Assembly: GCA_031119395.1 (NCBI GenBank)
Contig: JAVHYA010000012.1
Coordinates: 29,543-63,583 of the forward strand
Length of the DNA: 34,041 nucleotides
From: Pseudomonadota bacterium
GTDB taxonomy: Bacteria > Pseudomonadota > Gammaproteobacteria > Burkholderiales > Burkholderiaceae_C
Direction of reading: 5' to 3'
Part shown: positions 1,160-18,781 of the stretch, one piece after another
How positions within the stretch are numbered: position 1 is the stretch's first letter
Layout of the letters: the number at the start of each line of letters is the position of its first letter
Translations under genes and position numbers: made by a program
Notes under the pieces: model-generated
What the model was told of the DNA's origin: nothing
Databases searched by the model: none
Seen by the model: the letters and a program-made list of their open reading frames with translations, nothing else

Positions 1160-1990
1160 TCACGGGTGCGCGGCGATCCACTCGCGGTACGCCGGATGCT
1201 GGCGCAGCGTGCGGAAGCAGAAGCCCTTGGCCTTCAAGCCCACGATCAGCGGCTCCAGGTCGGCCGGCGCCCACGGGTCCTGGCGCGACCAGATGCCCAG
1301 GTGCGCCAGCAGGATGTCGCCGGGCCGGATGTGTTCCAGCGCCTGCGACAGCAGCTTGTCGTTGGGGTACTTGTCGCTGGGCAGTTCGTCGCCCAGGAAG
1401 CCGGCCGGCGACCAGCCGACGTGCGCGAAGCCGCAGCTCTTGGCCGCCGCCAGCAGGCGCGGCGAGGTCTTGCCGCCGGGCGCGCGGAACAGCGGCAGCG
1501 GCTTCTTGCCGGTGATGTGCGCCAGCCGGTCGGTCGAGCGCTTGATCTCTTCGCAGTACTGCGCCGCGTCCCAGGTGAAGGTGCGTCCCGCGTACGCGCC
1601 GGCGCTGGGCTGGATCCGGAACCTGGCATCCACCCCTTTCACGTCCCCGCGCCAGTACGCATGGTCGTAGGTGTGCGAGCCGAACTCGTGCCCCTCGGCC
1701 GCGCGCGCCTTCCACCACGGCGCCCAGTGGTTGTCCAGGCTGTCGCCGCCGTCCTGCGTCTTCTCGGCGGCGGCGAAGAAGGTGACCTTCACGTCCTGCC
1801 GCCTGAGCACCTCGGCCACCAGCGGCGCGATGCCCATGTGGCCGGTGTCGAAGGTCAGGTAGACCGGCTTGTCGCAGTCATTCTGGGCTGCAGCGCCCGC
1901 GGATCCTGCGCAAGCCGCTATGAAAAACGTAGCAATCGACGCGCCTTGCCGCAGCGCGCGGGCAGGCCGGAAATCAGCGGACCTTGGCAT
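1160..1990 (-). CDS. Polysaccharide deacetylase family protein (NodB-like), exported
   Basis: A 276-residue protein with a NodB homology domain filling residues about 43-265. Visible motifs are TFDTGH (46-51), the zinc-type H106-x3-H110 in SHTYDH, the FRAPGG substrate-groove motif (168-173) and a late AHLG with H230. In classical members the first motif is TFDDG, whose second Asp binds metal; here it is Thr49, followed by His51. Residues 1-36 look like a Sec signal peptide with cleavage near AAAQ, so the enzyme should act in the periplasm or envelope, removing acetyl groups from a polysaccharide or peptidoglycan. The start at 1990 is chosen because it gives a compact signal peptide; an in-frame ATG at 2008 is also possible. 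The gene overlaps the end of the upstream beta-propeller gene by 17 bases, which suggests coupled translation. Residues 20-40 are encoded by a dispersed repeat. Confidence 0.87.
   Translation of the reverse strand: MPRSADFRPARALRQGASIATFFIAACAGSAGAAAQNDCDKPVYLTFDTGHMGIAPLVAEVLRRQDVKVTFFAAAEKTQDGGDSLDNHWAPWWKARAAEGHEFGSHTYDHAYWRGDVKGVDARFRIQPSAGAYAGRTFTWDAAQYCEEIKRSTDRLAHITGKKPLPLFRAPGGKTSPRLLAAAKSCGFAHVGWSPAGFLGDELPSDKYPNDKLLSQALEHIRPGDILLAHLGIWSRQDPWAPADLEPLIVGLKAKGFCFRTLRQHPAYREWIAAHP
1871..1933 (-). repeat. Family 1 repeat copy R2, inside the deacetylase signal peptide
   Basis: On the coding strand the segment begins GCTACGTTTTTCATAGCGG and ends near CAGCCCAGAATGAC. Aligned without gaps it matches the aroA copy R4 at about 42 of 60 positions and the intergenic copy R5 at about 35 of the first 49 (hand counts). 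It encodes residues 20-40, starting ATFFIAACAG, i.e. the hydrophobic core and cleavage region of the signal peptide. Codons ATA, GCT and TTT stand out from the surrounding GC-rich usage. Confidence 0.7.
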
Positions 1991-2987
1991 GTTCGACCGT
2001 CCACACACCGTGGGGCGAGCGGCCCACGTTGACCGTGCGCACCACCTTGCCCGCCGTGAGGTCGACCACGCTGAGCTTCTTGGCCCAGCGCGAGGTGACG
2101 AAGAGCGTCTTGCCGTCGGCCGACACGTCCATGCAGTCCGGGCCGCCGGGCACCGGGTAGGTGGCGGCCACCGTGAGCGTGGGGATGTCGATGCGGCTGA
2201 TCGAGTTGGCGACGCGGTTGCTCACGAACACCGACTTGCCGTCGCCCGCCGAGCGGAAGGCATGCGCGCCCTTGCCGGTGGAGATCTTGCCGACCAGCTT
2301 GGGCTCCTTGCCCGCCACGTCGAAGACCTGCACGCCGTCGCCGCCGGTCAGGCCGACCAGCAGCGTCTTGCCGTCGTGGATGCCGAACACGTCGGCCGGC
2401 ATCGGCCCGGTGGGGATGCGCCAGCGGATGGCCTGGGTGGCGAGGTCGACGGCGATGAGCTCGTCGCTGTCCTGCATGGTGACGTAGGCCACCGTGCTCT
2501 TGCCGTCGATCCAGATGTGGCTGGGCGTCTTGCCGGTGGGGATGCGCTTGGCCAGCTGCAGGTTGCTGCCGTCCCAGCGGTAGACGTCGACGTGGTTGAG
2601 CCGGTTGCCGGCGGTCACGAACCACTTCATGTCGGGCGAGAACTGCAGCTGGTACGGGTCGATGATGCCGTAGACCGTGCGCTGGATCTCGCCCGTGCGC
2701 GGGTTGAAGAAGGTCAGCGAGTCGCCGGCCGAGTTGGCCACGATCACCGACTTCTGGTCCGGCGTCATGTAGATGTGGTGCGGCTCCTTGCCCACCGCGA
2801 CCCGGTTGCGTTCGCTCCAGGTGCCGGGATCGATCAGGCTGACCGAGGCATCGAGCGAATTGAGCACGAAGAGCGGCGGCGCCGCCGCAGTGGCCGGAGC
2901 GGCCGGTTGGGCCGGAGCGGCCGCGCAGGCCAGCAGACAAACGAAAAGAGCCGCAAGGCGGCTCAGGGAGCGAACGGACAGGCGCAA
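1974..2987 (-). CDS. YncE/YVTN-family beta-propeller protein, exported
   Basis: A 337-residue protein with an N-terminal signal peptide (RSLSRLAALFVCLLACAAAP, residues about 6-25) followed by an Ala/Pro-rich stretch and WD40/YVTN-like blades. Repeated blade signatures can be seen, such as FVLNSLDASVSLID, VIVANSAGDSLTFF, VFVSNRVANSISRID and LFVTSRWAKKLSVVDL, each with the N/S-x-S-xD pattern. This suggests a periplasmic seven-bladed propeller, usually a binding scaffold; no catalytic function can be assigned. The start is TTG at 2987, supported by GGAG seven bases upstream and by being the point where the signal peptide begins. It is the upstream partner of the deacetylase (17-base overlap), so the two may work in the same envelope process. 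Confidence 0.8.
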   Translation of the reverse strand: MRLSVRSLSRLAALFVCLLACAAAPAQPAAPATAAAPPLFVLNSLDASVSLIDPGTWSERNRVAVGKEPHHIYMTPDQKSVIVANSAGDSLTFFNPRTGEIQRTVYGIIDPYQLQFSPDMKWFVTAGNRLNHVDVYRWDGSNLQLAKRIPTGKTPSHIWIDGKSTVAYVTMQDSDELIAVDLATQAIRWRIPTGPMPADVFGIHDGKTLLVGLTGGDGVQVFDVAGKEPKLVGKISTGKGAHAFRSAGDGKSVFVSNRVANSISRIDIPTLTVAATYPVPGGPDCMDVSADGKTLFVTSRWAKKLSVVDLTAGKVVRTVNVGRSPHGVWTVEHAKVR

Positions 2988-3023
2988 GACACGGCTCCGG
3001 AAAGGGACTGGGAAGTTTAACGA

Positions 3024-3060
3024 GCGAGGGCGCCGCGCCGCCGACAGGACAGGCCCTCGC
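3024..3060 (-). terminator. Possible weak terminator hairpin after rsuA
   Basis: GCGAGGGC at 3024-3031 pairs perfectly with GCCCTCGC at 3053-3060, leaving a long 21-base loop. On the minus strand the stem is followed by TCGTTAAACTT. It lies between the rsuA stop and the start of the propeller gene. The long loop and poor U tract make it a weak candidate. Confidence 0.3.
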
Positions 3061-3090
3061 GATGGCCGGACGGCAGGCGCGCGCCGCGCG

Positions 3091-3828
3091 TCAGGCCGGG
3101 CCCGAAAGCCGCACCGCCTGCAGGTCCTCGGGCCTCAGCCAGCGCCATTGCCCGGGCGCCAGGTCGGCCGGCAGCACCAGGCCGCCGATGGCGCTGCGGT
3201 GCAGCGCCGTGACGCGGTTGCCCACGGCCGCGACCATGCGCTTGACCTGGTGGTACTTGCCCTCGGTGAGCGTGAGGCGCAGGTGGTGCGTGTCCACCGC
3301 TTCGGCCGCGGCCGCCCGCACCGGCTTCGGATCGTCGTCGAGCACCACGCCGGCCAGCAGGTGCCCGATCTGCGCCTCGGTGAGCGCATCGGCGGTCGTC
3401 GCCTCGTAGACCTTGGGCACATGGTGCTTCGGCGAGGCCATGCGATGGATGAACTGGCCGTCGTCGCTGAGCAGCAGCAGGCCGGTCGTGTCCTGGTCGA
3501 GCCGGCCGATGGCCTGCACGCCGGGTTGCCCGCCCTTGACGGGGCGCTGCCGCAGCGGCGCGGGCAGCAGGGTGTAGACGCTGGGCCAGGCCGAGGGCTT
3601 CTGCGAGCACTCGGTGCCGGCCGGCTTGTGCAGCATCAGGTAGGCCTTGCCGTGGTACTCCCACGGCGTGCCCTGCACGGTGAAGCGCAGGCCGTCGGTT
3701 GCTATCAAATCCGTAGCTGGCTGCGCAGCATCCACGCCGTCCACAGCCACGAAACCCTGTTGAATGAGGCCGGCACAGACGCGACGCGTGCCGAAGCCCT
3801 GGCTGTAGAGGAGGTCCTGAAGTTCCAT
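3091..3828 (-). CDS. rsuA: 16S rRNA pseudouridine synthase (RsuA family)
   Basis: A 245-residue pseudouridine synthase of the RsuA/RluB/E/F group, which isomerises a uridine in rRNA (RsuA: U516 of 16S rRNA). Residues 1-50 form a small S4-like RNA-binding domain and the rest is the catalytic domain. The catalytic-Asp motif GRLDQDTTGLLLLSDDG is present with the nucleophile at Asp111, and KPAG and KYHQVKRM motifs also fit the family. The length is close to that of E. coli RsuA (231). The ATG at 3828 is preferred over one 36 bases upstream because the S4 domain begins directly there; the upstream residues are not family-like. A dispersed repeat overlaps codons about 22-43 in antisense. Distinguishing RsuA from RluE-type specificity rests on overall resemblance only. 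Confidence 0.85.
   Translation of the reverse strand: MELQDLLYSQGFGTRRVCAGLIQQGFVAVDGVDAAQPATDLIATDGLRFTVQGTPWEYHGKAYLMLHKPAGTECSQKPSAWPSVYTLLPAPLRQRPVKGGQPGVQAIGRLDQDTTGLLLLSDDGQFIHRMASPKHHVPKVYEATTADALTEAQIGHLLAGVVLDDDPKPVRAAAAEAVDTHHLRLTLTEGKYHQVKRMVAAVGNRVTALHRSAIGGLVLPADLAPGQWRWLRPEDLQAVRLSGPA
3701..3765 (+). repeat. Family 1 repeat copy R3, antisense inside rsuA
   Basis: The plus strand reads GCTATCAAATCCGTAGCTGG then CTGCGC, matching the opening 26 bases of the copy at 32822 at about 22 positions; CAGCC recurs at the same offset later. Here the repeat is opposite to the coding direction, and read as rsuA it gives codons for the linker from the S4 domain (residues about 22-43, including PATDLIA). 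The 3' half is more diverged than in other copies. Confidence 0.55.
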
Positions 3829-3850
3829 CAAGCATGTCCAAGAACGACAA

Positions 3851-3880
3851 GGCGGCCGCGCCACGAGGAGCGCGGCCGCC
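3851..3880 (-). terminator. Terminator-like hairpin after ggt
   Basis: GGCGGCCGCG (3851-3860) and CGCGGCCGCC (3871-3880) are a perfect 10-bp inverted repeat with a 10-base loop, 18 bases past the ggt stop codon. On the minus strand the stem is followed by TTGTCGTTCTT, a partial U tract. It probably ends ggt transcription before rsuA. Confidence 0.6.
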
Positions 3881-3897
3881 CGGGGCGAGAACGCGGG

Positions 3898-5634
3898 TCA
3901 GTAGCCCAGCGCCAGCCCCGTGTTGCGGCGCGGATCGTTGGCGCCGTAGAAGCGGTTGTTGCCCACCGGCTTGCCGCCCAGCGAGGGCGCGCCGACGATG
4001 ATCGCGGCCAGGTGGTTGGCCGGTTGCGGCACGCCCAGGTTGTGGCCCATGTCGGTGAGGATCCTGCGCGTGTCGGGGCTCAGCGCATAGGCCTCGACGT
4101 TGGTGACGTCGGGCAGCCACTGCTGGTGGAAGCGGGGCGCATCGACGGCCTCCTGCACGTTCATGCCGTAGTCGATGGCGTTGATCATGGTGAGCATCAC
4201 GGCGGTGATGATGCGGCTGCCGCCCGGCGTGCCGACGACCATGACGGGCTTGCCGTCCTTGCTCACGATGGTCGGGCTCATCGACGAGAGCGGCCGCTTG
4301 CCCGGCTCGATCTTGTTGGCCTCGCCCTGCACCAGGCCGTAGAGGTTGGGCACGCCCACCTTCGAGGTGAAGTCGTCCATCTCGTTGTTCAGCAGCACGC
4401 CCGTCCTGGCGGCCGTGACCTTGGCGCCGAACCAGTCGTTGAGCGTGTAGGTCACCGACACGGCATTGCCCCACTTGTCGGCGATCGAGTAGTGGGTGGT
4501 GTTGCTGCCTTCATGCGGCGCCACGCCGGGCTTGATGTCCTTGGAGACGCCCGCCTTCTTCGGGTCGATCACGGCGCGGATCTTCTCGGCGTAGCCCTTG
4601 TCCAGCAGGCGATCGAGCGGGTTCTTCACGAAGTCCGGGTCGCCCAGGTAGCTGTTGCGGTCCACGTAGGCGTGGCGCATGGCCTCGATCTGGTAGTGCG
4701 TGGCCTCGGCGGAGCGCCAGCCCAGGTCCTTGAGCGGGTAGCCCTCGAGGATGTTGAGCATCTCGCAGATGATGACGCCGCCCGAACTCGGCGGCGGCGC
4801 CGAAACCACGCGGTAGCCGCGGTAGTCGCATTCCACGGGCGCCATCTCGCGCGTCTTGTACTGCGCCAGGTCTTCGGTGGTGATGATGCCCTTGCCCGCC
4901 GCGCTCGAGTCGGCGATGGCCTTGGCCACCCAGCCCTTGTAGAAGCCGTCGGTGCCCTTGGTGCTGACCTCGCGCAAGGTCCTGGCCAGGTCCTTCTGCA
5001 CGATCTTCTCGCCGACCTTGAAGGCCTCGCCCTTGTTCAGGAAGATCGCCGCCGTGGCCGGATCGGCCTTGAAGTCGGCCGTGGCGGTATTGAACATGTC
5101 GATGTCGCCCTGCTCGAGCACGAAGCCCTTCTCGGCCAGGTCGATGGAGGGCTTGATGAGCGCGGCGCGCTGCAGCGTGCCGTACTTCCCGCGCGCGTAC
5201 TCCATGCCCGACACGCTGCCGGGCACGCCCACGGCCAGGTGGCCCTTGGTCGAGAGGCCCTTGACCACGTTGCCGTCCTTGTCAAGGTACATGTCGGGCT
5301 TGGCCGCCAGCGGCGCCTTCTCGCGGAAGTCGAGGAAGGTCTTGCGTCCGTCGGCCAGCTGGATGGTCATGAAGCCACCGCCGCCGAGGTTGCCGGCCGC
5401 GGGGTAGACCACGGCCAGCGCGTAGCCGACGGCCACCGCGGCATCGACCGCGTTGCCGCCGCGCTTGAGCACGTCCACGCCGACCTTGGTGGCCAGGTGC
5501 TGGGCCGTGACGACCATGCCGTTCTCGGCCATGACCGGCGCCTGCGATGCCGCCATGGCCTGGCTACCAGCGCCCAATGCGAGGGCAGCGGCCAGCGCGG
5601 CGCGCGTCGAATGGGTCCATGCAAACTGCTTCAT
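3898..5634 (-). CDS. ggt: Gamma-glutamyltransferase, periplasmic proenzyme
   Basis: A 578-residue gamma-glutamyltransferase, which cleaves or transfers the gamma-glutamyl group of glutathione and related compounds. A Sec signal peptide occupies residues 1 to about 29 (ending QAMAAS), so the enzyme is periplasmic. As in the family, the precursor should cut itself into large and small subunits at the nucleophilic Thr in NTTHYS, here Thr379, with the following DKWGNAVSVTYTLN segment typical of the small subunit. Other family motifs are GGGGFM, PPPSSGGV, RPLSSMSPT and GTPGGSRI. Length matches the E. coli enzyme (about 580). The ATG at 5634 is well supported by GGAGG a few bases upstream. Followed by a strong hairpin. 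No partner gene for glutathione use is adjacent. Confidence 0.95.
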   Translation of the reverse strand: MKQFAWTHSTRAALAAALALGAGSQAMAASQAPVMAENGMVVTAQHLATKVGVDVLKRGGNAVDAAVAVGYALAVVYPAAGNLGGGGFMTIQLADGRKTFLDFREKAPLAAKPDMYLDKDGNVVKGLSTKGHLAVGVPGSVSGMEYARGKYGTLQRAALIKPSIDLAEKGFVLEQGDIDMFNTATADFKADPATAAIFLNKGEAFKVGEKIVQKDLARTLREVSTKGTDGFYKGWVAKAIADSSAAGKGIITTEDLAQYKTREMAPVECDYRGYRVVSAPPPSSGGVIICEMLNILEGYPLKDLGWRSAEATHYQIEAMRHAYVDRNSYLGDPDFVKNPLDRLLDKGYAEKIRAVIDPKKAGVSKDIKPGVAPHEGSNTTHYSIADKWGNAVSVTYTLNDWFGAKVTAARTGVLLNNEMDDFTSKVGVPNLYGLVQGEANKIEPGKRPLSSMSPTIVSKDGKPVMVVGTPGGSRIITAVMLTMINAIDYGMNVQEAVDAPRFHQQWLPDVTNVEAYALSPDTRRILTDMGHNLGVPQPANHLAAIIVGAPSLGGKPVGNNRFYGANDPRRNTGLALGY

Positions 5635-5666
5635 CGTTGCCTCCTGTAAAAAAGAAAAGCCTCCAC

Positions 5667-5732
5667 GCGCCCTGCTGCGCGAGCTTCGCTGCCCCGCACA
5701 GGGGCGCTTTTCATCATGGGGCGGCCCGGCGA
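5667..5732 (+). repeat. Intergenic repeat family 2, copy upstream of ggt
   Basis: In the 140-base gap between the methyltransferase and ggt the plus strand carries CTGCGCGAGCTTCGCTGCC, a GCCCC...GGGGC hairpin core, and GGGGCGGCCCGGCG at the end. The CTTCGCTGCCCC and GGGGCGGCCCGGCG blocks recur in the same order before tyrA and mrpC. It sits in the untranslated leader region of ggt. Confidence 0.5.
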
Positions 5733-5774
5733 TGAGAAATTCGAAGCGTGAAGGAATCGGTGCATCGGCCGCGC

Positions 5775-7370
5775 TCAGGCGATCAGCAGCGCCTTGCGGC
5801 GCAGGTCCTTGAGCACGAGCTCGACCTGCTGGCGCGTGAACTCGTGCAGCTCGGCCTCGTCGGTGATCGGTTGGTCGTCCTTGATGAAGCGCAGGCGGTC
5901 GGCCCGCGCCTCGGACTCGAGGTGCTCGACCAGTTGTTCGTGGGTGTGCGCTCCATCGAGCAGGGGCAACACGCAGCGCTCCAGCAGGGACAGGCCCACC
6001 GGCTCATGCCACTGGTTGCACACGCTGGCGCCCTGACCGGCGGCCAGCGGCAGGCCGGGCGACTGCCGCACCGACATCAGCGCCTGCGGTGTCGCCGCGA
6101 CGTCCGCAGCAGTGACGACCGGCGTGCGGCGGATGCGCACCGCGCCGAAGATCAGGAGCTCCTCGAGCATCGAGACCACCGCGACTTCGACCGCCGCATG
6201 CGGCTCGCCGATGCGTGCGGACACGGCTTCGACCAGGGCATCGACCGGCACCGTGGCGGGATAGCGCTCGTCCAGCACCTGCGCCACCGCCTTGTGGACC
6301 GGCAGGCGCAGCGTGATCTTGAGGTTGTGAATGGCGTTGCTCGGCTGCTCGCGCGCGTCGAGGGTGAGCGCAGACCCGTCGGCGGCCGTGAAGACGCCCG
6401 CGTAGTGGAGCTTGCGCAGCCGCTCGCGATCGAGGCGATAGCGGATGTCGCCATTGCGCGACTGCTTGACCAGCAGCGTCTGGCGGAAGGTCCGGTTGAC
6501 CAGGAAGTCCAGGTACTGCTCCATGAGGATCTGGCTGCCGCCGCATTCGCGCAGCAGGGGCTCGCGCACCTTGTCGCCGTAGTTCTGCACGAACATGGTC
6601 GAGGGCTCGGCGTCGCACAGGTAGCTCAGGCCCTGGGCGTCGGCGCGACCGACGAACTCCTTGAAATAGCAGGGAGCGTTGCACGGCTCGAGGAACTCGT
6701 GCAGCAGGTAGGAGTCGTGCGAGGCCCGCACGATGGGCATGGCCTCCTCCAGCGTTTTCTTCAGCACGCTGTCGGGCTTGGCGGAGCCCTCGAGGAACTC
6801 GAGCATGCCGCGTGCGTACGAGAGCTTCTCTTGCGGCGTGTCGCGCGGCCCGCCGCGCAGGATCATCGCGTCGCGGACGATCTCGCGCGCCTTCCAGCCG
6901 GGATAGACGTTGTAGCTGATGTAGGCCACGCCATCGGCGGCGAGGTTGCGGGAGCACACGCGCAGGATGGCTTCCTGCACCGGCTCGGGCACCCAGCTGT
7001 AGACCCCGTGGCAGATGATGTAGTCGAACTCGCCGAAGTCTTCGCCGATGTCGGTGATGCTCAGCGTACGCAGCTCGACGTTCGGCACGCGAACGTGAGC
7101 CAGCAGTTGCTGGCCCTGGCTGACCTGCACCGGGGACAGGTCCACGCCCAGCAGCTTCGCCTGTGGATGCCGGGCCCCCATCGGGATCAGGTTGCCGCCG
7201 GAGGCACAGCCCAGTTCGAGCACCCGCGCGCGCGCCAGCGCGGGGGCTTCCAGGCCGAACAGCCAGGCCAGGGCCTCGAGGTGTTCGATCGAGCTCTGGG
7301 GGAAGGGGTGGGAATCGTAGGGAACGCTGTCGTAGTACGACGTGATCGTGCTGGTCAGTGCATCCGACAT
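5775..7370 (-). CDS. SAM-dependent methyltransferase with methyltransferase regulatory domain
   Basis: A 531-residue protein. Residues about 10-230 form a class I Rossmann methyltransferase domain, with the SAM-binding motif VLELGCASGG at 50-59 and the opening YYDSVPYDSHPFPQS block that is characteristic of this group. The middle part (about 230-330) resembles the methyltransferase regulatory domain, and the C-terminal 200 residues look like the winged-helix region found in protein-lysine methyltransferases of the PKMT type. The family includes rickettsial enzymes that methylate outer-membrane proteins, so a protein substrate is a reasonable inference but unproven. The start ATG at 7370 is chosen because homology-like sequence begins there; an upstream in-frame extension would run into the tmRNA gene. 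It stands alone between ssrA and ggt. Confidence 0.82.
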   Translation of the reverse strand: MSDALTSTITSYYDSVPYDSHPFPQSSIEHLEALAWLFGLEAPALARARVLELGCASGGNLIPMGARHPQAKLLGVDLSPVQVSQGQQLLAHVRVPNVELRTLSITDIGEDFGEFDYIICHGVYSWVPEPVQEAILRVCSRNLAADGVAYISYNVYPGWKAREIVRDAMILRGGPRDTPQEKLSYARGMLEFLEGSAKPDSVLKKTLEEAMPIVRASHDSYLLHEFLEPCNAPCYFKEFVGRADAQGLSYLCDAEPSTMFVQNYGDKVREPLLRECGGSQILMEQYLDFLVNRTFRQTLLVKQSRNGDIRYRLDRERLRKLHYAGVFTAADGSALTLDAREQPSNAIHNLKITLRLPVHKAVAQVLDERYPATVPVDALVEAVSARIGEPHAAVEVAVVSMLEELLIFGAVRIRRTPVVTAADVAATPQALMSVRQSPGLPLAAGQGASVCNQWHEPVGLSLLERCVLPLLDGAHTHEQLVEHLESEARADRLRFIKDDQPITDEAELHEFTRQQVELVLKDLRRKALLIA

Positions 7371-7495
7371 GCGGTGGGTCCCTCGGCGTGATGTGGTCGG
7401 AACGTTCTTGTTTTCGCTGCGCATGCGAGCCCGGCAAGGCACCGGGCACGGCAAGGAGCGCCGACTATAAGCCCGCCCATCGGCGACCGAGCAAC

Positions 7496-7530
7496 AAAAA
7501 AAGGGCCGGATTCGTGGGAATCCGGCCCTT
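7496..7530 (-). terminator. Intrinsic terminator of ssrA
   Basis: A perfect 13-bp inverted repeat (7501-7513 with 7518-7530, loop 7514-7517) lies seven bases beyond the tmRNA 3' CCA. On the minus strand the stem is followed by a run of T residues. This is a textbook Rho-independent terminator; the 166-base gap to the methyltransferase start holds nothing else I can identify. Confidence 0.93.
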
Positions 7531-7536
7531 GCCGTG

Positions 7537-7922
7537 TGGTGGAGCTGGGGGGATTCGAACCCCCGTCCGCAAGCCATCGTCGCGCAGTTCTACATGTTTA
7601 GCGATCTGATTTGGATCTCGCCACCGGCGTCGCGCAGTCGCACGCTCCACCGGCCGCCAGCACCCTTGAATCTCGCCGCCGCCCAAGGTGCCCGGACGGC
7701 GGCCAGCCAATGTAATTAACCTTGCAGCCGGGAGGCGTCAGATTGCTCTAACGCCCCCTTGCCCAGCCCATCGGCCAACTGTTGCAAGGCTCACCGGGTT
7801 TAAGCGGCGAGTGCGAAACGTTCGTCGTTTGCAGTTAGTTTGTTTGAATCTGTTTAACGAGCGCATTCAGCTCGACATGCCCCGCTGCGATCCCGAACCC
7901 ACGTCGAAACCAGTGCAGCCCC
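7537..7922 (-). ncRNA. ssrA: tmRNA (transfer-messenger RNA)
   Basis: A 386-base one-piece tmRNA, which rescues stalled ribosomes and tags the unfinished protein for proteolysis. The 5' end GGGGCTG pairs with CAGCTCC before the 3' ACCA (one G-U pair), forming the alanyl acceptor stem; CCA is encoded. The T arm is GGGGG-TTCGAAT-CCCCC. The 5' region contains the conserved GGTTTCGACG block. The tag reading frame gives ANDERFALAA then TAA, a tag seen in Burkholderiales. It has a promoter within the end of gph and a strong terminator, so it is its own transcription unit. Confidence 0.96.
7800..7832 (-). other. tmRNA tag-peptide reading frame
   Basis: Minus-strand codons GCA AAC GAC GAA CGT TTC GCA (and on to TAA) encode ANDERFALAA. 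The GCA resume codon is at 7832-7830 and the stop at 7802-7800. The C-terminal ALAA is the degradation signal recognised by ClpXP-type proteases. Confidence 0.95.
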
Positions 7923-7932
7923 TGGAATCGGT

Positions 7933-7959
7933 ATTTTAGTCCGCGCGCAGCCATTTCAA
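7933..7959 (-). promoter_or_regulatory. Candidate sigma-70 promoter of ssrA
   Basis: On the minus strand TTGAAA (7959-7954) and TAAAAT (7938-7933) are separated by 15 bases. The -10 box lies ten bases before the mature tmRNA 5' end, which fits a short leader removed by RNase P. The hexamer starts with the TAA stop codon of gph, so the promoter overlaps the end of that gene. Confidence 0.6.
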
Positions 7960-8604
7960 GAGCTCGAGCGGCGCGGCGATCGCGGCATTGGCTTCCCAGA
8001 GGGTGGTGTCGGCGTCGGCGCCCAGGTAACCATAGGTCGCGGCGATGGTGCGCATGCCCGCAGCGCGGCCAGCCACCATGTCGCGCTCGTCGTCTCCCAC
8101 GTACACGCAGTCCGTCGCTGGCAGACCGAGGCGGCGCGCGGCTTCGAACAGCGGCTCCGGATGCGGCTTGGCATACGGCGTGCTGTCGCCGCTCACGATG
8201 GCACCGGCACTGCCGAACAACGGCAGCGACGCCGTGAGCGGTTCGGTGAAGCGCCTGGACTTGTTGGTGACCACGCCCCACGCGAGCCCTGCGTTGCGAA
8301 GTTCCGCGATCAGTTCCGCCACCCCGTCGAAGATGAAGGTGTTGTCCAGCATGCGCGCTTCATAGTTCTGGAAGAACTCCTCACGCAAGGCGGCGAACTC
8401 CGGCGCCTCGGGTGTGATGCCGAAGGCCACGCCCAGCATCCCGCGGGCACCGGCGCCGGCCATGGGCCGGTAGTTGTCCAGGGGAAGCGAGGCCAGGCCG
8501 CGATCGGTGCGCATCTTGTCGGCGGCAGCCCCCAGATCGGGAGCGCTGTCGATCAGGGTGCCGTCGAGATCGAACAGCACCGCACGTGGACGCCACGTGC
8601 TCAT
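7936..8604 (-). CDS. gph: Phosphoglycolate phosphatase (HAD family)
   Basis: A 222-residue HAD hydrolase, cytosolic, expected to dephosphorylate 2-phosphoglycolate. The catalytic motif FDLDGTLID puts the nucleophile at Asp12 and the acid/base at Asp14. Later motifs are VVTNKS (motif II), the Lys of YAKPHPEPL (motif III) and VGDDERDM (motif IV), with a helical cap domain between the first two. The start ATG at 8604 overlaps the ubiG stop as ATGA, and there is no clear ribosome binding site of its own, so translation is probably coupled to ubiG. The ubiG-gph pairing is common in proteobacteria. A related pyrimidine-5'-nucleotidase or other small-phosphate specificity cannot be excluded from sequence alone. 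Confidence 0.88.
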   Translation of the reverse strand: MSTWRPRAVLFDLDGTLIDSAPDLGAAADKMRTDRGLASLPLDNYRPMAGAGARGMLGVAFGITPEAPEFAALREEFFQNYEARMLDNTFIFDGVAELIAELRNAGLAWGVVTNKSRRFTEPLTASLPLFGSAGAIVSGDSTPYAKPHPEPLFEAARRLGLPATDCVYVGDDERDMVAGRAAGMRTIAATYGYLGADADTTLWEANAAIAAPLELLKWLRAD

Positions 8605-9320: not shown

Positions 9321-9328
9321 GTCGGCAG

Positions 9329-9334
9329 ATTATC
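9329..9334 (-). promoter_or_regulatory. Candidate -10 element of ubiG
   Basis: GATAAT on the minus strand, eight bases before the ubiG ATG and with no clear -35 partner. If real, the transcript would be leaderless or nearly so. Confidence 0.3.
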
Positions 9335-9390
9335 AAGTCGCACGCGCGGGCGCGGGCGACAGGTCGGACCACGACGTGGTGGCCCGGAAA

Positions 9391-9416
9391 TAAAAAAACC
9401 CCGCCGAAGCGGGGTT
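9391..9416 (-). terminator. Intrinsic terminator of the OmpA-family gene
   Basis: AACCCCGC (9397-9404) pairs with GCGGGGTT (9409-9416) around a TTCG loop on the minus strand, followed by TTTTTATTT. The hairpin begins 22 bases past the stop codon. Confidence 0.92.
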
Positions 9417-9438
9417 CTTGAAAGCCGAAGCTTGTGGA

Positions 9439-10312: not shown

Positions 10313-12952
10313 ATGACCTCGTTCGCCAAAGAAACCCTGCCCATCAGTCTCGAAGAGGAAATGCGGCGCAGCTACCTCGACTACGCCATGAGCGTGATCG
10401 TGGGACGAGCGCTCCCGGACGCCCGCGACGGCTTGAAGCCTGTCCATCGGCGCGTGCTGTACGCGATGCACGAACTGAACAACGACTGGAACCGGCCTTA
10501 CAAGAAGTCGGCGCGCATCGTGGGCGACGTGATCGGCAAGTACCACCCGCACGGCGACCAGTCGGTCTACGACACGATCGTGCGGCTGGCGCAGGATTTC
10601 TCGATGCGCCACATGCTGGTGGACGGCCAGGGCAATTTCGGCTCCGTGGACGGGGACAACGCCGCGGCCATGCGATACACCGAAATTCGCCTGGCAAAAA
10701 TTGCGCACGAAATGCTGGCGGATATCGACAAGGAAACAGTCGATTTCGGCCCGAATTACGACGGCAGCGAAAAAGAGCCGATCGTTTTGCCGAGCAAATT
10801 GCCGAATTTGCTGGTGAATGGTTCCGGCGGTATTGCGGTGGGCATGGCGACGAATATTCCGCCACACAACCTCAACGAAGTGGTGGACGCCTGCCTGCAC
10901 CTGTTGCGCCAGCCCGAGGCGACGATCGACGAGCTGATGGAGATCATCCCGGCCCCGGACTTCCCGACCGCCGGCATCATCTACGGCATCAACGGCGTGA
11001 AGGACGGCTACCGCACCGGCCGCGGCAAGGTGGTGATGCGTGCCAAGTGCCACTTCGAGGACATCGACCGTGGCCAGCGGCAGGCGATCATCGTCGACGA
11101 GCTGCCCTACCAGGTCAACAAGAAGACGCTGCAGGAGCGGATGGCCGAACTGGTGCACGAGAAGAAGCTCGAGGGCATCAGCCACATCCAGGACGAGTCC
11201 GACAAGTCGGGCATGCGGCTGGTGATCGAGCTCAAGCGCGGCGAGGTCCCCGAAGTCGTGCTCAACAACCTCTACAAGCAGACCCAGCTGCAGGACACCT
11301 TCGGCATCAACATGGTGGCGCTGGTCGACGGCCAGCCGAAGCTGTGCAACCTGAAGGACCTGATCCAGGTCTTCCTGCAGCACCGGCGCGAGGTCGTCAC
11401 CCGCCGCACGGTCTTCAACCTGCGCAAGGCGCGCGACCGCGGCCACGTCCTGGAAGGCCTGGCGGTGGCGCTGGCCAACATCGACGACTTCATCGCCATC
11501 ATCCGCAACGCCCCCACTCCGCCGGTGGCCAAGGCCGAGCTGATGGCGCGCTCGTGGGACAGCAAGCTGGTGCGCGAGATGCTGACCCGCTCGCGGGCCG
11601 ACGGCGGCACGGTGAATGCCGACGACTACCGCCCCGAAGGGCTCGAGCGCGAGTACGGCCTGCACAGCGACGGCCTGTACCGCCTGTCCGAAACGCAGGC
11701 CCAGGAAATCCTGCAGATGCGCCTGCAGCGCCTGACCGGCCTGGAGCAGGACAAGATCGTGGCCGAGTACAAAGAGGTGATGTCGGAGATCGACGACCTG
11801 CTCGACATCCTCGCCCGCCCCGAGCGCGTGTCGACCATCATCGGCGACGAGCTCACGAGCCTCAAGCAGGAGTTCGGACAGACCAAGCTGGGTGCGCGCC
11901 GCAGCCAGGTGGAGCACAGCGCCTACGACCTGTCGACCGAAGACCTGATCACGCCGACCGACATGGTCGTGACCCTTTCCCACAGCGGCTACATCAAGAG
12001 CCAGCCGCTGAGCGAATACCGCGCCCAGAAGCGCGGCGGCCGCGGCAAGCAGGCGACGGCGACCAAGGAAGACGACTGGATCGACCAGCTCTTCATCGCC
12101 AACACGCACGACTACATCCTGTGCTTCTCCAACCGCGGCCGCCTGTACTGGCTCAAGGTGTGGGAAGTGCCGGCCGGTTCGCGCAACTCGCGCGGGCGTC
12201 CGATCGTCAACATGTTCCCGCTCGCCGAGGGCGAGAAGATCAACGTCGTGCTGCCGCTCACGGGCGAGACGCGCAACTTCCCGGCCGACCGGTACATCTT
12301 CATGGCGACCTCGATGGGCACGGTGAAGAAGACGGCGCTGGACGAGTTCAGCAACCCGCGCAAGGCCGGCATCATTGCCGTGGACCTCGATGCGGGCGAC
12401 TACCTCGTGGGCGCGGCGCTGACCGACGGCCAGCACGACGTGATGCTGTTCTCGGACGGCGGCAAGGCCGTGCGCTTCGACGAGAACGACGTGCGTCCGA
12501 TGGGCCGAAACGCCCGCGGCGTGCGCGGCATGATGCTCGAGGAAGGCCAGGGCGTGATCGCCATGCTGGTGGCCGAAGACGAGCAGCAGAGCGTGCTCAC
12601 CGCCACCGAGAACGGCTACGGCAAGCGCACGAGCATCGTCGAATACACGCGCCATGGCCGGGGAACCAAAGGCATGATCGCGATCCAACAAAGCGAGCGC
12701 AACGGCAAGGTCGTCGCCGCCACGCTGGTCCATGCGGACGACGAGATCATGCTCATCACCGACAAGGGCGTGCTGGTGCGCACCCGCGTGGCCGAAATCC
12801 GTGAACTCGGCCGGGCCACGCAAGGCGTCACCCTCATCGGCCTCGACGAAGGCGCCAAGCTCAGCGGTCTGCAACGCATCGTGGAAAACGATGCCAACGG
12901 CGCCGCAGACGGCGACGACTCTTCCAACCCATCCACGGAGAACACTCAATGA
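10313..12952 (+). CDS. gyrA: DNA gyrase subunit A
   Basis: An 879-residue GyrA, the DNA-cleaving and DNA-wrapping subunit of the enzyme that introduces negative supercoils. The N-terminal winged-helix/tower/coiled-coil part runs to about residue 520 and carries the catalytic Tyr122 in [10 protein letters not shown]. The C-terminal beta-pinwheel follows, with the GyrA box QKRGGRG at 572-578, which marks it as gyrase rather than topoisomerase IV. In the quinolone-contact region the sequence is [10 protein letters not shown]: position 83 is Gln where E. coli has Ser, and Asp87 is kept. Codons for residues about 124-182 are unusually AT-rich compared with the rest. The gene ends in an ATGA overlap with the DUF2059 gene, heading the housekeeping cluster. 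Length matches E. coli (875). Confidence 0.98.
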
Positions 12953-13533
12953 AAAGACTCAAACACATCCTGCTGGCCACCACCCTCGCTTCCGCCGCCA
13001 CCGCCGGCTGGGCCCAGGACAAGGCGACGCTCATCAAGCAGTTCCTCGACGTCCAGAAGCCCGCGGTCGAAATGATGGCCCGCGGCATCGTCCAGAGCAC
13101 CTCCGATCCGGTCGCCGCGGCCGCCTCCGAGTACCTGAACACCCGCGTTGCGGCGGACAAGCGCGATGCCGCCGCCAAGGCCGCCGACGAGGAATTCCGC
13201 AAGTATTACGACGCGACCTTCCCGATCGTGCGCGACAAGGCTGCCCAGGTGTTCCCCGGCGTCGTGACGCCGATCCTCGAGCAGGACTTCACCGAGGACG
13301 AACTCAAGACGCTGATGGCCTGGCTCAACTCGCCGGTGAGCCGCAAGTTCGCCGAGACCAGCGGCAAGATGCAGCAGGCCCTGGGCCAGAAGATCATCGG
13401 CGACCTGCGCAGCACGCTCGAACCCAAGGTCGAGAAGCTCAACGTCGACGTGGCCAAGGCCATCGGCGCCCCGACCGACGGCGGCCAGGCTGCACCCAAG
13501 TCGGGCGGCGCCAAGGCACCTGCCAAGAAGTGA
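12949..13533 (+). CDS. DUF2059 domain-containing exported protein
   Basis: A 194-residue protein with a signal peptide (residues 1-22, ending GWAQ). The rest is helical and matches the DUF2059 pattern, including a block of the type [20 protein letters not shown] and [13 protein letters not shown]. The C-terminal 25 residues are Gly/Ala/Lys-rich and probably disordered (ending APAKK). The function is unknown. Its ATG overlaps the gyrA stop by four bases, with GGAG eight bases upstream, and its own stop overlaps the serC GTG, so it is translated within the gyrA-serC operon. A periplasmic location is inferred from the signal peptide only. Confidence 0.88.
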
Positions 13534-14651
13534 CCACGACCTTGCCCCGCCGCCCCTACAACTTCTCCGCCGGCCCGGCCATGATGCCGGAGGCCGTGCT
13601 GCAGCAGGCTGCCGCCGAGATGCTCGACTGGCATGGCAGCGGCATGGGCGTGATGGAGATGAGCCACCGGGGCAAGGAGTTCGGCGAGATCCTCGCGCGG
13701 GCGGAGGGCGACCTGCGGCGCCTGCTGCATGTGCCCGAGCAGTTCCACATCCTCTTCATGCAGGGTGGCGGCCTGGGCGAGAACGCCATCGTGCCGCTGA
13801 ACCTGTCACGGGGCGGCACCGTCGACTTCGTCGTCACCGGCAGTTGGAGCGTGAAGTCGCACAAGGAAGCCCAGCGCTACTGCGATGCGCGCATCGCCGC
13901 CAGCAATGCCGAAGGCGGGCACCTGAGCCTGCCCGACCCGGCCGGCTGGCAGCTCAGCGACGGCGCCTCCTACGTGCACCTGTGCTCCAACGAAACGATC
14001 AACGGCATCGAATTCCAGGAGCTTCCGGATTTGAAGGCCCTGGGCAGTTCCGCCCCGCTGGTCATCGACTTCTCGTCGCACGTCGCTTCGCGACCTGTGG
14101 ACTGGTCGCGGGTCGGACTGGCCTTCGGTGGCGCGCAGAAGAACCTCGGCCCGGCCGGCCTCACGCTGGTCGTGGTGCGTGACGAGCTCCTGGGCCACGC
14201 GCTGGACATCTGCCCGAGCGCCTTCAACTACCGCACGGTCGCCGACAACCAGTCGATGTACAACACCCCGCCGACCTGGGGAATCTACGTCGCCGGCCTC
14301 ACCTTCCAGTGGCTGCTGGCGCAGAAGGAAGGCGAGCTGACCGGCGTCGAGGCGATGGCCCGGCGCAATGCCGCCAAGGCGAAGTTGCTCTACGACGCCA
14401 TCGACGGCTCGTCCTTCTACAGCAACCGGGTCGATGTCGGCTGCCGTTCGCGCATGAACGTGCCCTTCTTCCTCGCCGACGACAGCCGCAACGCCGACTT
14501 CCTGGAAGGTGCCCGCGCTGCCGGCCTTTTGCAGCTCAAGGGCCACAAGTCGGTGGGCGGCATGCGCGCCAGCATCTACAACGCGATGCCGCTGGAAGGG
14601 GTCCAGGCGCTGGTCGCCTACATGAGAGAATTCGAGCGATTGCATGCCTGA
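13530..14651 (+). CDS. serC: Phosphoserine aminotransferase
   Basis: A 373-residue class V aminotransferase (PLP enzyme) that makes 3-phosphoserine for serine synthesis and also serves pyridoxal phosphate synthesis. It opens with the family signature [37 protein letters not shown] and the PLP-lysine region [14 protein letters not shown] (Lys in AQKN) are all present. I choose GTG at 13530, forming a GTGA overlap with the preceding stop codon; a TTG at 13542 is an alternative and no ATG lies between. There is no strong ribosome binding site, consistent with coupled translation. The serC-pheA-tyrA-aroA order downstream is a familiar proteobacterial cluster. Confidence 0.95.
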
Positions 14652-15785
14652 ATGCACGCGCGCCCGATGACCTCTCCCGCCGACTCGCCCCCCTCCATCG
14701 AATCCTCTGCCAGCCTCGCCGATCTGCGGGTGCAGATCGACGCGCTCGACGACCAGCTGCTGCAGCTGCTCAACGCACGTGCGCGCGTGGCGGAGCTGGT
14801 CGGCGAGGTCAAGAAGCGGGAAGGCACGCCCTTCTTCCGACCCGATCGCGTGGCGCAGGTGATCGAGAAGGTCCGGCGCAACAACGCAGGCCCGCTCAAG
14901 AGCGCACATGTCGCGGCCATCTGGCGCGAGATCATGTCGGCTTGCCTGGCCCTCGAATCACCGCAGCGCGTGGCGGTGCTGGGACCCGAGGGCACCTTCT
15001 GCGAACAGGCGGCCATCGAGTACTTCGGTGGCGCCGCGGACCTGGTCTACTGTGCCAGCTTCGACGAAGTGTTCCACGCCACGGCCAGTGGCAGTGCGCA
15101 GTACGGCGTCGTGGGCGTGGAGAACTCCAACGAGGGCGTGGTCACCCGCTCGCTCGACATGTTCCTGCAGTCGCCCACGCACGTGGTCGGCGAAGTGAGC
15201 CTGCTGGTGCGCCACAACCTGCTGCGCCAGGTCAGCTCGCTCGACGGCATCGAGGCCGTGCTGGCCCACCCCCAGGCGCTGGCGCAGTGCCAGGGCTGGC
15301 TCGCCAAGCATCTGCCCCAGGCCGAGCGGCGCGCCGTCTCGAGCAACGCCGAAGGCGCGCGCCTCGCGGCCACCAACCCGGCCTGGGCCGGCCTGGCCAG
15401 CGAACGTGCCGCCACCGAGTACGGCCTGCACATCGTGGCCCATGCGATCCAGGACGACGCCTACAACCGTACGCGCTTCGCCGTCATCACCCTGCCCGCG
15501 ACGCTGGCCATGCCGCCGGCCTCGGGCCGCGATTGCACGAGCCTCGTGGTCTCGGTGCCGAACCGCCCTGGCGCCGTGCATGACCTGCTCGTGCCCCTGA
15601 AGACGCACAACGTGTCGATGACGCGCTTCGAGTCCCGGCCCGCGCGCACCGGCCAGTGGGACTACTACTTCTACATCGACCTGGACGGACACCCGAGCCA
15701 GCCCCACGTCGCGGCGGCACTGGCCGAACTGCGCGCGCTGTGCGCGTTCTACAAGGTCATCGGCGCCTACCCGGTGAAGGCCTGA
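14652..15785 (+). CDS. pheA: Bifunctional chorismate mutase / prephenate dehydratase (P-protein)
   Basis: A 377-residue P-protein for phenylalanine synthesis: chorismate to prephenate to phenylpyruvate. Residues about 20-105 are an AroQ-type chorismate mutase ([20 protein letters not shown], then EVKKREG and FRPDRVAQV). Residues about 112-285 are the dehydratase domain, with [17 protein letters not shown] and the catalytic TRF motif in NRTRFAVI. Residues about 300-375 are an ACT domain with [10 protein letters not shown] and the ESRPAR motif that binds phenylalanine for feedback inhibition. The ATG at 14652 directly abuts the serC stop; an ATG at 14667 is an alternative start. Confidence 0.96.
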
Positions 15786-15792
15786 GATGTCG

Positions 15793-15864
15793 GCCCCCGC
15801 GCTCATCACTCCGTGTATCGCGCCCCCCCAAGGGGACGCAGGCCTGCCTTGGGGCGGCCCGGCG
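15793..15864 (+). repeat. Intergenic repeat family 2, copy between pheA and tyrA
   Basis: Starts GCCCCCGCGCTCATCACT, continues with a TATCGC-C-run-GGGG core, and ends in GGGGCGGCCCGGCG. The first 15 bases are identical to the copy at 29515, and the core and end are closely related. It fills nearly all of the 87-base gap, ending just at the GGAGG ribosome binding site of tyrA. Confidence 0.75.
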
Positions 15865-15872
15865 GAGGCCTG

Positions 15873-16757
15873 ATGTTCGATCAACTCGGCCTGATCGGCT
15901 GCGGCCTCATCGGCGGCTCGTTCGCGCTGGCGCTCAAGCAGGCGCGCCTGGTCAAGCGGGTGGTGGGCTACAGCAAGTCGCCGTCGACCACGGAACGCGC
16001 CCGTCAGCTCGGCGTGATCGACGTGGCGGCGCCGTCCGCCCTGCTCGCCGTCTCGGGCGCCGACCTGGTGCTCATCGCCGTGCCCGTCGCAGCATCCGAA
16101 GCGACCTTCAAGGCGATCCGCCACGGCATCGCGGACAACGCCATGGTCATGGACGTGGGCTCGACCAAGCGGGACGTGATCGCCGCCGCCGAGCGGGGCC
16201 TTCAGCAGCAGCTGTCGCACTTCGTGCCCGCCCACCCGATCGCGGGCAAGGAACTCTCGGGCGTGGAGCATGCCGACGCCGCCCTCTTCGTCGATCGGCA
16301 GGTGGTGCTGACGCCGGTCCAGTCCACCCGGCGCGCCAACCTCCAGCGGGCATCCCAGGTGTGGACCGGCATCGGTGCCAAGGTCGTCCACATGACGCCC
16401 GAGGCCCACGACGCCGCCTTCGCGGCGGTGAGCCACCTGCCGCACCTGCTGGCCTTCGCCTTCACCAACGCCATCGCCGGGCAGCCCGACGGATCGCAGT
16501 TCCTCGCCCTGGCGGGCAGCGGTTTTCGCGACTTCTCGCGCATCGCCGCCAGCGACCCCGCCATGTGGCGCGACGTGCTGCTGGCCAACCGCGAGCAGGT
16601 GCTGCTGCAGTCCCAGGCTTTCCGCAAGGCGCTGTTGCAGATGGAAGCGCTCATTGCCGCCGGCGATGGGAACTCGCTGGAGCAGGCGATCGCCGCCGCC
16701 AGCCGCACCCGCGCCCAATGGCAGCTGGCGACGCCCAGCGCGCCGGGCAACGACTGA
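15873..16757 (+). CDS. tyrA: Prephenate dehydrogenase
   Basis: A 294-residue NAD-dependent prephenate dehydrogenase for tyrosine synthesis. The N-terminal Rossmann fold has [17 protein letters not shown] (residues about 6-22), followed by [17 protein letters not shown] and the substrate-site motif [14 protein letters not shown] are clear. The C-terminal helical dimerisation part holds [22 protein letters not shown]. There is no ACT or chorismate mutase domain, so it is the simple form. The ATG at 15873 is chosen over an in-frame one 60 bases upstream because it has GGAGG five bases before it and the dinucleotide-binding fold starts there; the upstream codons come from the repeat. The next gene starts two bases after the stop. 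Confidence 0.94.
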
Positions 16758-16759
16758 CG

Positions 16760-18781
16760 ATGTACGCCACTCCTTTTCTCGACGTCCCGCCGCTCGTGGC
16801 GGCCGGCGGCACGGTTCGCCTGCCGGGCTCCAAGAGCATCTCCAATCGCGTGCTGTTGCTGGCCGCGCTGGCGCAGGGCAGCACGACCGTCCACGACCTG
16901 CTCGACTCGGACGACACGCGCGTGATGCTGGACGCGCTGGCAACGCTCGGCTGCGGCCTGGATCGCGATGGCGGCGTGCTGCGCATCGAAGGGCTCGGCG
17001 GCCGCCTGGGCGACGACGTGCGCCAGCGCGCCCTGTCGCTCTTCCTCGGCAATGCCGGGACCGCCATGCGGCCGCTGACTGCCGCGCTGGCCCTGCTGGG
17101 GGGCGACTTCGAACTGCGCGGCGTACCGCGCATGCACGAGCGCCCGATCGGCGACCTGGTCGACGCGCTGGTGCAGTTGGGCTGCCAGGTCGAGTACCTC
17201 GGCAACCCCGGCTACCCGCCGCTGCGTATCCGGCCCGTCAGCGCCGCGGCGCTGCAGCTGGATGCGCCGATCCGCGTGCGCGGCGACGTGTCGAGCCAGT
17301 TCCTCACGGCGCTCCTGCTTGCGCTTCCGCTGGCGGCGGCCTCGCGTCCCATCACCATCGACGTGATCGGCGAGCTGATCTCCAAGCCCTACATCGAGAT
17401 CACGCTCAACCTGCTCGCGCGCTTCGGCATCGACGTGCAGCGCGACGGCTGGTCGCGCTTCGTCATTCCGGCCGGCGCGCAGTACCGGTCCCCGGGCGAC
17501 ATCCATGTCGAGGCGGATGCCTCCTCTGCTAGCTATTTCATAGCGCTTGGCGCAATAGCGGCGGGCCTTCCAGGCCAAAATGGCTTGAAGATCGAAGGCG
17601 TGGGCGCGGACTCCATCCAGGGCGACATCCGCTTCGTCGAGGCCGCACGGCAGATGGGCGCGCAGGTCACCAGCGGCCCCAACTGGCTGCAGATCGAGCG
17701 CGGCGCCTGGCCGTTGCGCGCCATCGACATCGACGCCAACCACATCCCCGACGCCGCGATGACGCTGGCCGCCATGGCGCTGTACGCCGATGGCCCCAGC
17801 ACGCTGCGCAACATTGCCAGCTGGCGCGTGAAGGAAACCGACCGCATCGACGCCATGGCGGCCGAACTGCGCAAGCTCGGCGCCACCGTCGAGGCCGGCC
17901 CGGACTTCATCCGCATCGAACCGCTGCCGCCCGGCCACTGGCGGCGCGCCAGCATCCACACCTACGACGACCACCGGGTCGCCATGTGCTTCTCGCTCGC
18001 GGCCTTCAATCCGGACCGGTTGCCGGTCCGCATCCTCGATCCCAAGTGCGTGGGCAAGACCTTCCCGGACTACTTCGAGGCGCTGTTCTCCGTGGTCCGG
18101 CCGGCCGAGGTGCCCGTGATCTGCGTGGACGGCCCCACCGCCTCCGGCAAGGGCACGCTGGCGGCCGAGATCGCGCGCCGGCTCGGCTACCACTACCTCG
18201 ACTCGGGCGCCCTGTACCGGGTCGCGGGCCTGGTCATGCGGCGCGCCGGCCTGGAAGCCGATGCGGCCGATGAAGCCCGCATCGCCGGGCTCGCCCGCGG
18301 CCTGGCCCTGCGCTTCGACGCCGGCCAGGTGCTGCTGGCCGGAGAGGACATCACCGACGCGATCCGCACCGAGGCCGCGGGCATGGACGCCTCCCGGGTG
18401 TCGGCGCTGCCGGCGGTGCGCGAGGCCTTGCGTGACCTGCAGATCTCCTTCCGCCAGCTGCCGGGCCTGGTGGCCGACGGGCGCGACATGGGCACCGTCA
18501 TCTTCCCCGACGCCTCCTTGAAGATCTACCTCACGGCCAGCGCCGCGCACCGCGCCGAGCGCCGGCATAAGCAGTTGATTTCAAAGGGGATTTCGGTTAC
18601 ACTCGACAGTCTTCGCGCCGACTTGGAAGCGCGTGATGCCAGGGACTCGTCCCGCAGCGTCGCGCCACTGAAGCCCGCAGAAGACGCCCGCCTCCTGGAC
18701 AACTCCGAGCAGACCATCGAGCAATCGGTGGATCAGGTTCTGGCCTGGTGGCGGCAGGTGCAGCCTTTCGACGACCGCTGA
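16760..18781 (+). CDS. aroA-cmk: Bifunctional EPSP synthase / cytidylate kinase fusion
   Basis: A single 673-residue frame holding two enzymes. Residues 1 to about 447 are 3-phosphoshikimate 1-carboxyvinyltransferase (shikimate pathway): [10 protein letters not shown] at 21-30, NAGTAMRP at 98-105 with the Gly100 that corresponds to E. coli Gly96 (glyphosate-sensitive class I type), [20 protein letters not shown] and [10 protein letters not shown]. Residues about 451-673 are cytidylate kinase, with the P-loop [10 protein letters not shown] (457-466), then [19 protein letters not shown] and [10 protein letters not shown]. The junction reads [15 protein letters not shown] with no stop and no long linker. 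Separate genes occur side by side in E. coli. A family 1 repeat covers codons 257-277 of the AroA part, adding about four residues compared with E. coli AroA. rpsA follows, with a candidate promoter inside the kinase part. Confidence 0.96.
17528..17590 (+). repeat. Family 1 repeat copy R4, in frame inside aroA
   Basis: The segment begins GCTAGCTATTTCATAGCGC and ends near CCAGGCCAAAATGGCTTG. Without gaps it matches the deacetylase copy at about 42 of 60 positions by hand count. It encodes [19 protein letters not shown] (residues 257-275), starting in the conserved ASYF of AroA. It is read in the same frame as the deacetylase copy. Codons TAT, ATA (twice), CTT and CAA stand out in this GC-rich gene. 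Confidence 0.65.
18575..18603 (+). promoter_or_regulatory. Candidate rpsA promoter inside the cmk part
   Basis: TTGATT (18575-18580) and TACACT (18598-18603) are separated by 17 bases in a locally AT-rich stretch of an otherwise GC-rich gene. Each hexamer matches the sigma-70 consensus at four of six positions. A promoter within cmk for rpsA fits the need to make S1 at a much higher level than the upstream enzymes. Confidence 0.5.

Follow-up and report, generated by a model that had tools for sequence, protein, structure and literature searches.

Rickettsia palindromic elements (RPE) form a palindromic repeat family that is read in frame in unrelated proteins, and in-frame insertion into genes, as selfish DNA, has been reported for them. 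Here we describe a family of about 62 bp that is likewise read in frame in unrelated proteins, found through two of its copies in a 34,041-nt stretch of DNA (the window; window coordinates count from its first letter) from contig JAVHYA010000012.1 of a Pseudomonadota bacterium of the Burkholderiaceae_C, called the host below. One of these copies lies in aroA, coding for EPSP synthase, and the other in the gene of a polysaccharide deacetylase. The family also resembles the DNA uptake sequences (DUS) of Neisseriaceae and the uptake signal sequences (USS) of Pasteurellaceae, which according to the parts of the sources drawn on here occur in hundreds to thousands of copies with one in-frame orientation favoured (PMC2346458) and have genome-specific dialects that track phylogeny (PMC3630211). 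It differs from them in being 62 bp long with two palindromes, instead of 9-12 bp, and in being known from sequence alone. Similar by description, the only basis on which we compared it, and possibly identical is the betaproteobacterial repeat element (BRE), a repeat of Comamonadaceae and Bordetella with some copies wholly inside coding sequences; in the portion of PMC3110155 used here it differs from our family in that full-length elements measure 75-91 bp in Bordetella, are often in tandem and do not exceed 29 copies.

A first-pass annotation had claimed that the two segments were one repeat read in the same phase. They do align without gaps (Table 1), at 43 of 62 bases and 42 of the first 60, and a single reading phase gives ATFFIAACAGSAGAAAQNDC in the deacetylase and a 20-residue stretch in aroA. 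The pair is also the best result of an inverted-repeat search of the window (59 nt, 73%). A weight matrix made from 28 genome copies, none of them from the window, scores above 0 bits at six places in the window, in agreement with the six copies counted earlier, the one at 3701 being weak. None of 600 randomised windows reaches zero with this matrix, the best of them giving -1.3 bits. With the proteins fixed and the synonymous codons redrawn, the real score was matched in 0 of 20,000 draws for aroA and likewise for the deacetylase. The amino acids alone lift the deacetylase segment (redraw mean -10.1 vs -22.9 for aroA), which is what can be said for a mere coincidence of codon choice in GC-rich genes; the redraws and the randomised windows already refute that explanation and leave it a practically negligible probability. 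The two segments are thus confirmed as copies of a real interspersed family. Within the aroA copy third-position G+C drops to 0.50, vs 0.92 upstream and 0.97 downstream, and the gene finder rates positions 17517-17588 as non-coding-like.

The 30 copies that we extracted align without gaps across 62 bases and share one layout, GCTAT-N7-ATAGC followed by a second palindrome (GCGCCCG N5 CGGGCGC in the host) and a T-rich end, the palindromes being about 17 and 19 bp long; in 73 copies the information is restricted to about 64 positions. With the best window copy as the query the host genome gave 45 matches, five of them weak, and a covariance model found at least 150 copies, with an E-value of 1.1e-13 for the weakest among the matches listed. 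As in DUS, the motif is over-represented: 95 copies were found in 798,540 bp (0.80 Mb) of the host, a non-random sample of 40 stretches from large contigs found in the hit lists, and none in random sequence with the same 3-mer context. By our own rough extrapolation this makes 600 copies per host genome. With the host-specific model and strict filters, 28 genomes had a match out of 60 that represent as many other genera of the family, and 19 had five or more, the largest per-genome counts being at least 89. Outside the family only 3 of 97 genomes of the order gave one or two marginal matches. Among named relatives the nearest by aroA is Xenophilus (96%), others including Variovorax, Rhodoferax, Acidovorax and Polaromonas. 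The listings of our literature searches showed no description of a 62-bp motif of this kind, BRE apart.

The first-pass annotation had suggested a profile search that would count the copies lying in frame inside genes. In the host sample, a gene finder started from the genes known in the window puts 14 of the 95 copies inside genes whose open frame is the same before and after the copy; of these 14, 13 are read in phase 0, in either orientation. There were 17 same-frame rows, from which three with in-frame stops (L153:16468, L141:11535 and L167:5405) were removed. Reading the consensus by hand, two of the three phases are open on each strand, and the chance of 13 in 14 is about 0.001 by our own arithmetic. 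The carrier genes code for very different proteins: by NCBIfam, HrpA, the error-prone DNA polymerase DnaE2, DapE, biotin carboxylase, dihydrolipoyl dehydrogenase, the PDH E2 subunit, RlmD, HscA, propionate-CoA ligase and PgeF/YfiH; by Pfam, an Exo_endo_phos (EEP) protein, a FemAB-like protein and a PD-(D/E)XK nuclease. The fourteenth is ImuB-like by eye only and matched no family. We had considered aroA as the source of the whole family and dropped the idea, since hscA, dnaE2 and dapE embed the motif likewise.

The motif has dialects. Its stems vary among five genomes, the second palindrome being GCGCTTG..CAAGCGC in G015 and G010, mixed in G004 and GCCGGCG..CGCCGGC in G020. The copies inside the genes of G020 carry the G020 dialect: GCCGGCG..TGCCGGC in dapE, GCCGGCG..CAACGGC in dnaE2, GCCTGTG..CGCCGGC in the deacetylase gene, GCCTGCA..CAACGGC in hscA and GCGCGCT..CGCCGGC in aroA. 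All five of these orthologous copies score best with the G020 matrix, and the stretches used to train the dialects contain, by their coordinates, none of the five genes. Over 19 orthologous copies, the excess of the own-dialect score was reached by 0 of 5,000 label permutations. In aroA taken alone the own dialect is best in 3 of 5 genomes, and in hscA the amino acids vary with the dialect (IAFSA.. vs IAGSL..).

The copies persist in place. Of 81 host copies, 41 could be located by both flanks in the congeneric genome G071, and 38 of these 41 are present there; in the reverse direction 37 of 41 copies could be located and 36 of the 37 are present in the host. The four absences resemble larger deletions or decay rather than clean excisions. 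In 41 orthologous pairs, the 31 most informative positions differ at a rate of 0.103 per site vs 0.206 for the other 31; the ungapped flanks give 0.24, a figure inflated by indels. Copies also avoid close neighbours. In the host sample, with 93 merged sites and expectations obtained by dealing the copies to intergenic intervals, there are 0 gaps shorter than 1 kb vs 7.4-7.9 expected (P 0.0005), and 13 shorter than 3 kb vs about 27 expected.

It had been proposed that such a repeat might insert into genes without breaking them, and that orthologues would reveal it. In aroA, comparing the window with 80 named orthologues, the distance from ASYF to QGD is at least 33 residues in 46 genes, a few carriers being longer still (36-42 residues), and less (mostly 29-31) in 35, with L075 placed by hand in the short class. 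The mark of the motif, ATA at the Ile codon of ASYFI, is present in 28 of the 46 long genes vs 1 of the 35 shorter ones, rows that are related and not independent events; ATA makes up 5.7% of all Ile codons in these genes. We relied on this length-class test, the synonymous conservation of the ASYFI codons being partly circular as the rows had been picked by score. Nearly all carriers are in the long class, and 18 long genes do not have the ATA mark, some of them eroded-looking. The same 11 residues are encoded with and without motif DNA: Limnohabitans (L072) and Roseateles (L127) keep them with no repeat-like DNA. For aroA such orthologues partly refute the proposed insertion, and the long class is typically 3-4 residues longer. 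The HscA alignment measures 45 residues at 27 of the 30 loci, carriers and non-carriers alike, and the exceptions (48, 49 and 49 residues) include two with weak motif scores. The aligned stretch of DnaE2 measures 45-46 residues in carriers vs 41 in 11 motif-less loci, a gain of 4 against some outgroups, and five loci whose motif signal is weak or missing reach 45 as well. Carriers also have a longer EEP protein and, in many cases, longer DapE loops; the extra length is at variable loops, and in these proteins, as in DnaE2, insertion is possible. The deacetylase copy, in the signal-peptide region, is present in orthologues of about 12 other genera and is therefore old; an insertion is conceivable there. 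In aroA and hscA, with typically 3-4 additional residues and 0 respectively, a discrete in-frame insertion like that of RPE is not seen, and in ordinary genes such as aroA the motif appears to have arisen in situ and not by insertion.

Gain in place, one tolerated frame, dialect tracking, avoidance of neighbours and immobility together make the motif resemble DNA uptake sequences, and from this pattern we infer, on our own account, a putative role in uptake. The reading that we tentatively favour, at somewhat less than an even chance, is that of a genome-wide motif of about 62 bp with two palindromes that is recognised by a factor, kept and improved in place, and driven by uptake. A trans-acting factor would recognise the motif as double-stranded DNA and would belong to the DNA-uptake machinery (type IV pilus), the motif being its uptake sequence. 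Homologous fragments that match better would, once imported, replace the resident allele, and this replacement would push the motif into genes at some expense in amino acids. Natural transformation has been reported in relatives: in the part of PMC4212676 used here, Verminephrobacter eiseniae, Acidovorax temperans and A. facilis transform naturally, V. eiseniae doing so through type IV pili with evidence of sequence-selective uptake and limited inhibition by foreign DNA, and A. temperans was transformed by DNA of its own species only; no uptake motif is named in that part. Every one of the 19 genomes with five or more motif matches has a ComEC match (in three pieces in G003).

Several observations weigh against uptake. 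Of the 41 other genomes, 36 have a ComEC match too. The same portion of PMC4212676 records no detectable transformants for A. defluvii or A. delafieldii, and loci named after both species (L097 and L073) carry a motif-like aroA. The conserved positions span about 64 bases and the motif 62 bp, vs the 9-12 bp of known uptake sequences, and no short core of 9-12 bp is found. The own dialect is best in only 13 of the 19 copies (one tie; four genes, five genomes), with matrices built on just 11-28 copies. Before the spacing test two pairs of copies lying 45 nt apart were each counted as one site, avoidance is only short-range, as the coefficient of variation across all gaps is that of random spacing (P about 0.6), and four other genomes avoid less, with 7 vs 12.9 expected (P 0.034) under a uniform control in stretches partly chosen around matches. 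Most copies are extragenic, often at 3' ends, where a role in RNA could act. The argument as a whole is drawn from sequence patterns, and a role in uptake or binding is only putative.

A constraint on a hairpin or RNA was tried and rejected, as the stems have no within-copy covariation and 40 congener pairs yielded one both-side change, located in the extension. Measured against the exchange of 3' halves among copies of one genome, pairing inside the two palindromes is not raised (z -1.21 and 0.55), and that of the extension gives z 1.76 (p 0.05). The lack of covariation is more in keeping with a protein site of dyad symmetry in double-stranded DNA than with an RNA or a single-stranded hairpin.

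Selfish DNA inserting in frame into genes, as the first-pass annotation proposed, would account for the one frame in both orientations (13 of 14) and for the longer EEP protein, DapE loops and DnaE2 of carriers. It is contradicted in aroA and hscA, where the residues and a nearly equal length exist without the motif, and by the five DnaE2 loci of 45 residues with weak or no motif signal, and the copies are not mobile, being common to congeners, and vary in place with the dialect of each genome; we regard it as very doubtful. What survives of the proposal is one family, one shared frame and the tolerance of the proteins; arrival by insertion is not supported. Another candidate is a family like the repetitive extragenic palindromes (REP), mobilised by a single-copy Y1 transposase (REP-associated tyrosine transposase, RAYT), the copies within genes being old insertions trimmed by selection. 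Like REP, the family has palindromes and prefers intergenic positions and 3' ends, with 1 copy between divergent genes vs 12 between convergent ones, and the ATAG, GTAG or GGAG ahead of the second palindrome resembles a REP tag. The Y1_Tnp domain occurs in 47 of the 60 genomes, including one match in the host and 17 of the 19 genomes with at least five motif matches. A copy starts at the stop codon of the host Y1_Tnp gene (L307 2145-2899, host contig C15), with the same distance between copy and Pfam match in G004 and, weakly (11.6 bits), in G023, the copy of G010 being on the other side.

Y1_Tnp, however, has no match in G020, which has a strong dialect (nor in the incomplete G040), and is present in 30 of the 41 genomes with fewer than five motif matches. 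Unlike REP, the copies are neither all extragenic nor clustered, 14 of 95 being in frame in genes and no gap being shorter than 1 kb; they stay in place across congeners, which have no clean empty sites, their stems lack within-copy covariation, and the conserved aroA residues are left unexplained. The main text of a REP survey (PMC3733652) names none of Comamonadaceae, Variovorax, Acidovorax, Polaromonas or Burkholderiales in a word search. We consider mobilisation by a RAYT unlikely, if with some claim to attention. Finally, the motif could be bound by a nucleoid protein or one that organises the chromosome, and be under selection at hundreds of sites. This agrees with the dyad symmetry, the presence of both orientations, the avoidance of close neighbours in the host sample and the fewer changes at informative positions, but selection on each site would have to outweigh the amino-acid constraint in HscA and aroA, and only 19 of the 60 genomes from the family reach five copies with the host model, so that we take this explanation to be rather improbable.

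Table 1 Motif copies in the window and the genes that carry them
Feature	Position	Strand	Remarks
Motif copy inside aroA (EPSP synthase part of aroA-cmk)	17528..17589	+	phase 0, codes 20 residues; 24.6 bits
Motif copy inside polysaccharide deacetylase gene	1872..1933	-	phase 0, signal-peptide region ATFFIAACAGSAGAAAQN; 22.1 bits
Weak motif copy, antisense in RsuA-type pseudouridine synthase gene (- strand)	3701..3762	+	5.5 bits
Intergenic motif copy, downstream of deacetylase stop	1072..1133	-	37.7 bits
Intergenic motif copy, after open reading frame ending at 26414	26433..26494	+	74.8 bits
Motif copy at 3' end of open reading frame 32439-32837	32822..32883	+	88.4 bits
aroA-cmk fusion gene, carrier of the 17528 copy	16760..18781	+	NCBIfam NF008816, 1162.8 bits
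Polysaccharide deacetylase gene, carrier of the 1872 copy (start approximate)	1160..1990	-	Pfam PF01522, 80.4 bits
RsuA-type pseudouridine synthase gene (start approximate)	3091..3834	-	Pfam PF00849, 64.6 bits

The family NF008816 stands for a bifunctional 3-phosphoshikimate 1-carboxyvinyltransferase/cytidylate kinase, in which aroA and cmk are fused. The RsuA-type gene is above the cut-off of NCBIfam TIGR00093, and the RsuA model gives it 163.9 bits, below its cut-off. The stop codon of the last open reading frame (32835-32837) falls within the motif copy. At the gathering score the sole Rfam match in the window is the transfer-messenger RNA (tmRNA) gene at 7537-7922 (-), no family matching any of the motif copies there. 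A second direct repeat of 73 nt, 79% identical, is located at gene boundaries at 15793-15865 and 29515-29587. Elsewhere in the host, long stretches of positions 1-100000 of contig C62 are non-coding by the host model, and only 2 motif copies lie in these 100 kb; with its foreign-looking coding statistics this region is perhaps acquired DNA.

The host consensus gave no match against plasmid records, and the low-GC consensus gave one partial match among phages, in a record that bears the name Salmonella. Positions 127932-127970 of NZ_CP022165.1 (L363) contain a partial copy (query 13-51, 85%), in a DUF1010 gene that in this one plasmid record inspected is flanked by dfrA12 and aadA2 in a class 1 integron. 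In all 1,751 plasmid records matched, mostly enterobacterial, and DUF1010 genes were 14 of 20 among the matches listed; a Comamonadaceae chromosome may be the origin of this integron cassette. Motif copies also occur on plasmids of Diaphorobacter and Comamonas testosteroni (L364 and L365), at gene junctions, where they overlap cobN and a 2-hydroxymuconic semialdehyde dehydrogenase gene at their annotated 3' ends.

The orthologous copies within genes, tracking the dialect of each genome, would be a clear natural experiment on a force at the DNA level that reshapes protein, even beside an active site. The family is also a testable candidate for the uptake motif in the transformation of Verminephrobacter and Acidovorax, and if uptake should fail as an explanation, a motif with hundreds of copies that persist in place still needs a factor that binds it. 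That the Comamonadaceae have a self-recognition code of their own, a long two-palindrome uptake sequence with genus dialects that rewrites conserved proteins, is a possibility we put forward with appreciable reserve. If it is true, the drive has rewritten EPSP synthase and HscA and supplies the core of a signal peptide, and every change of dialect rewrites the same protein positions anew; the motif may serve these bacteria as a signal for recognising DNA of their own.

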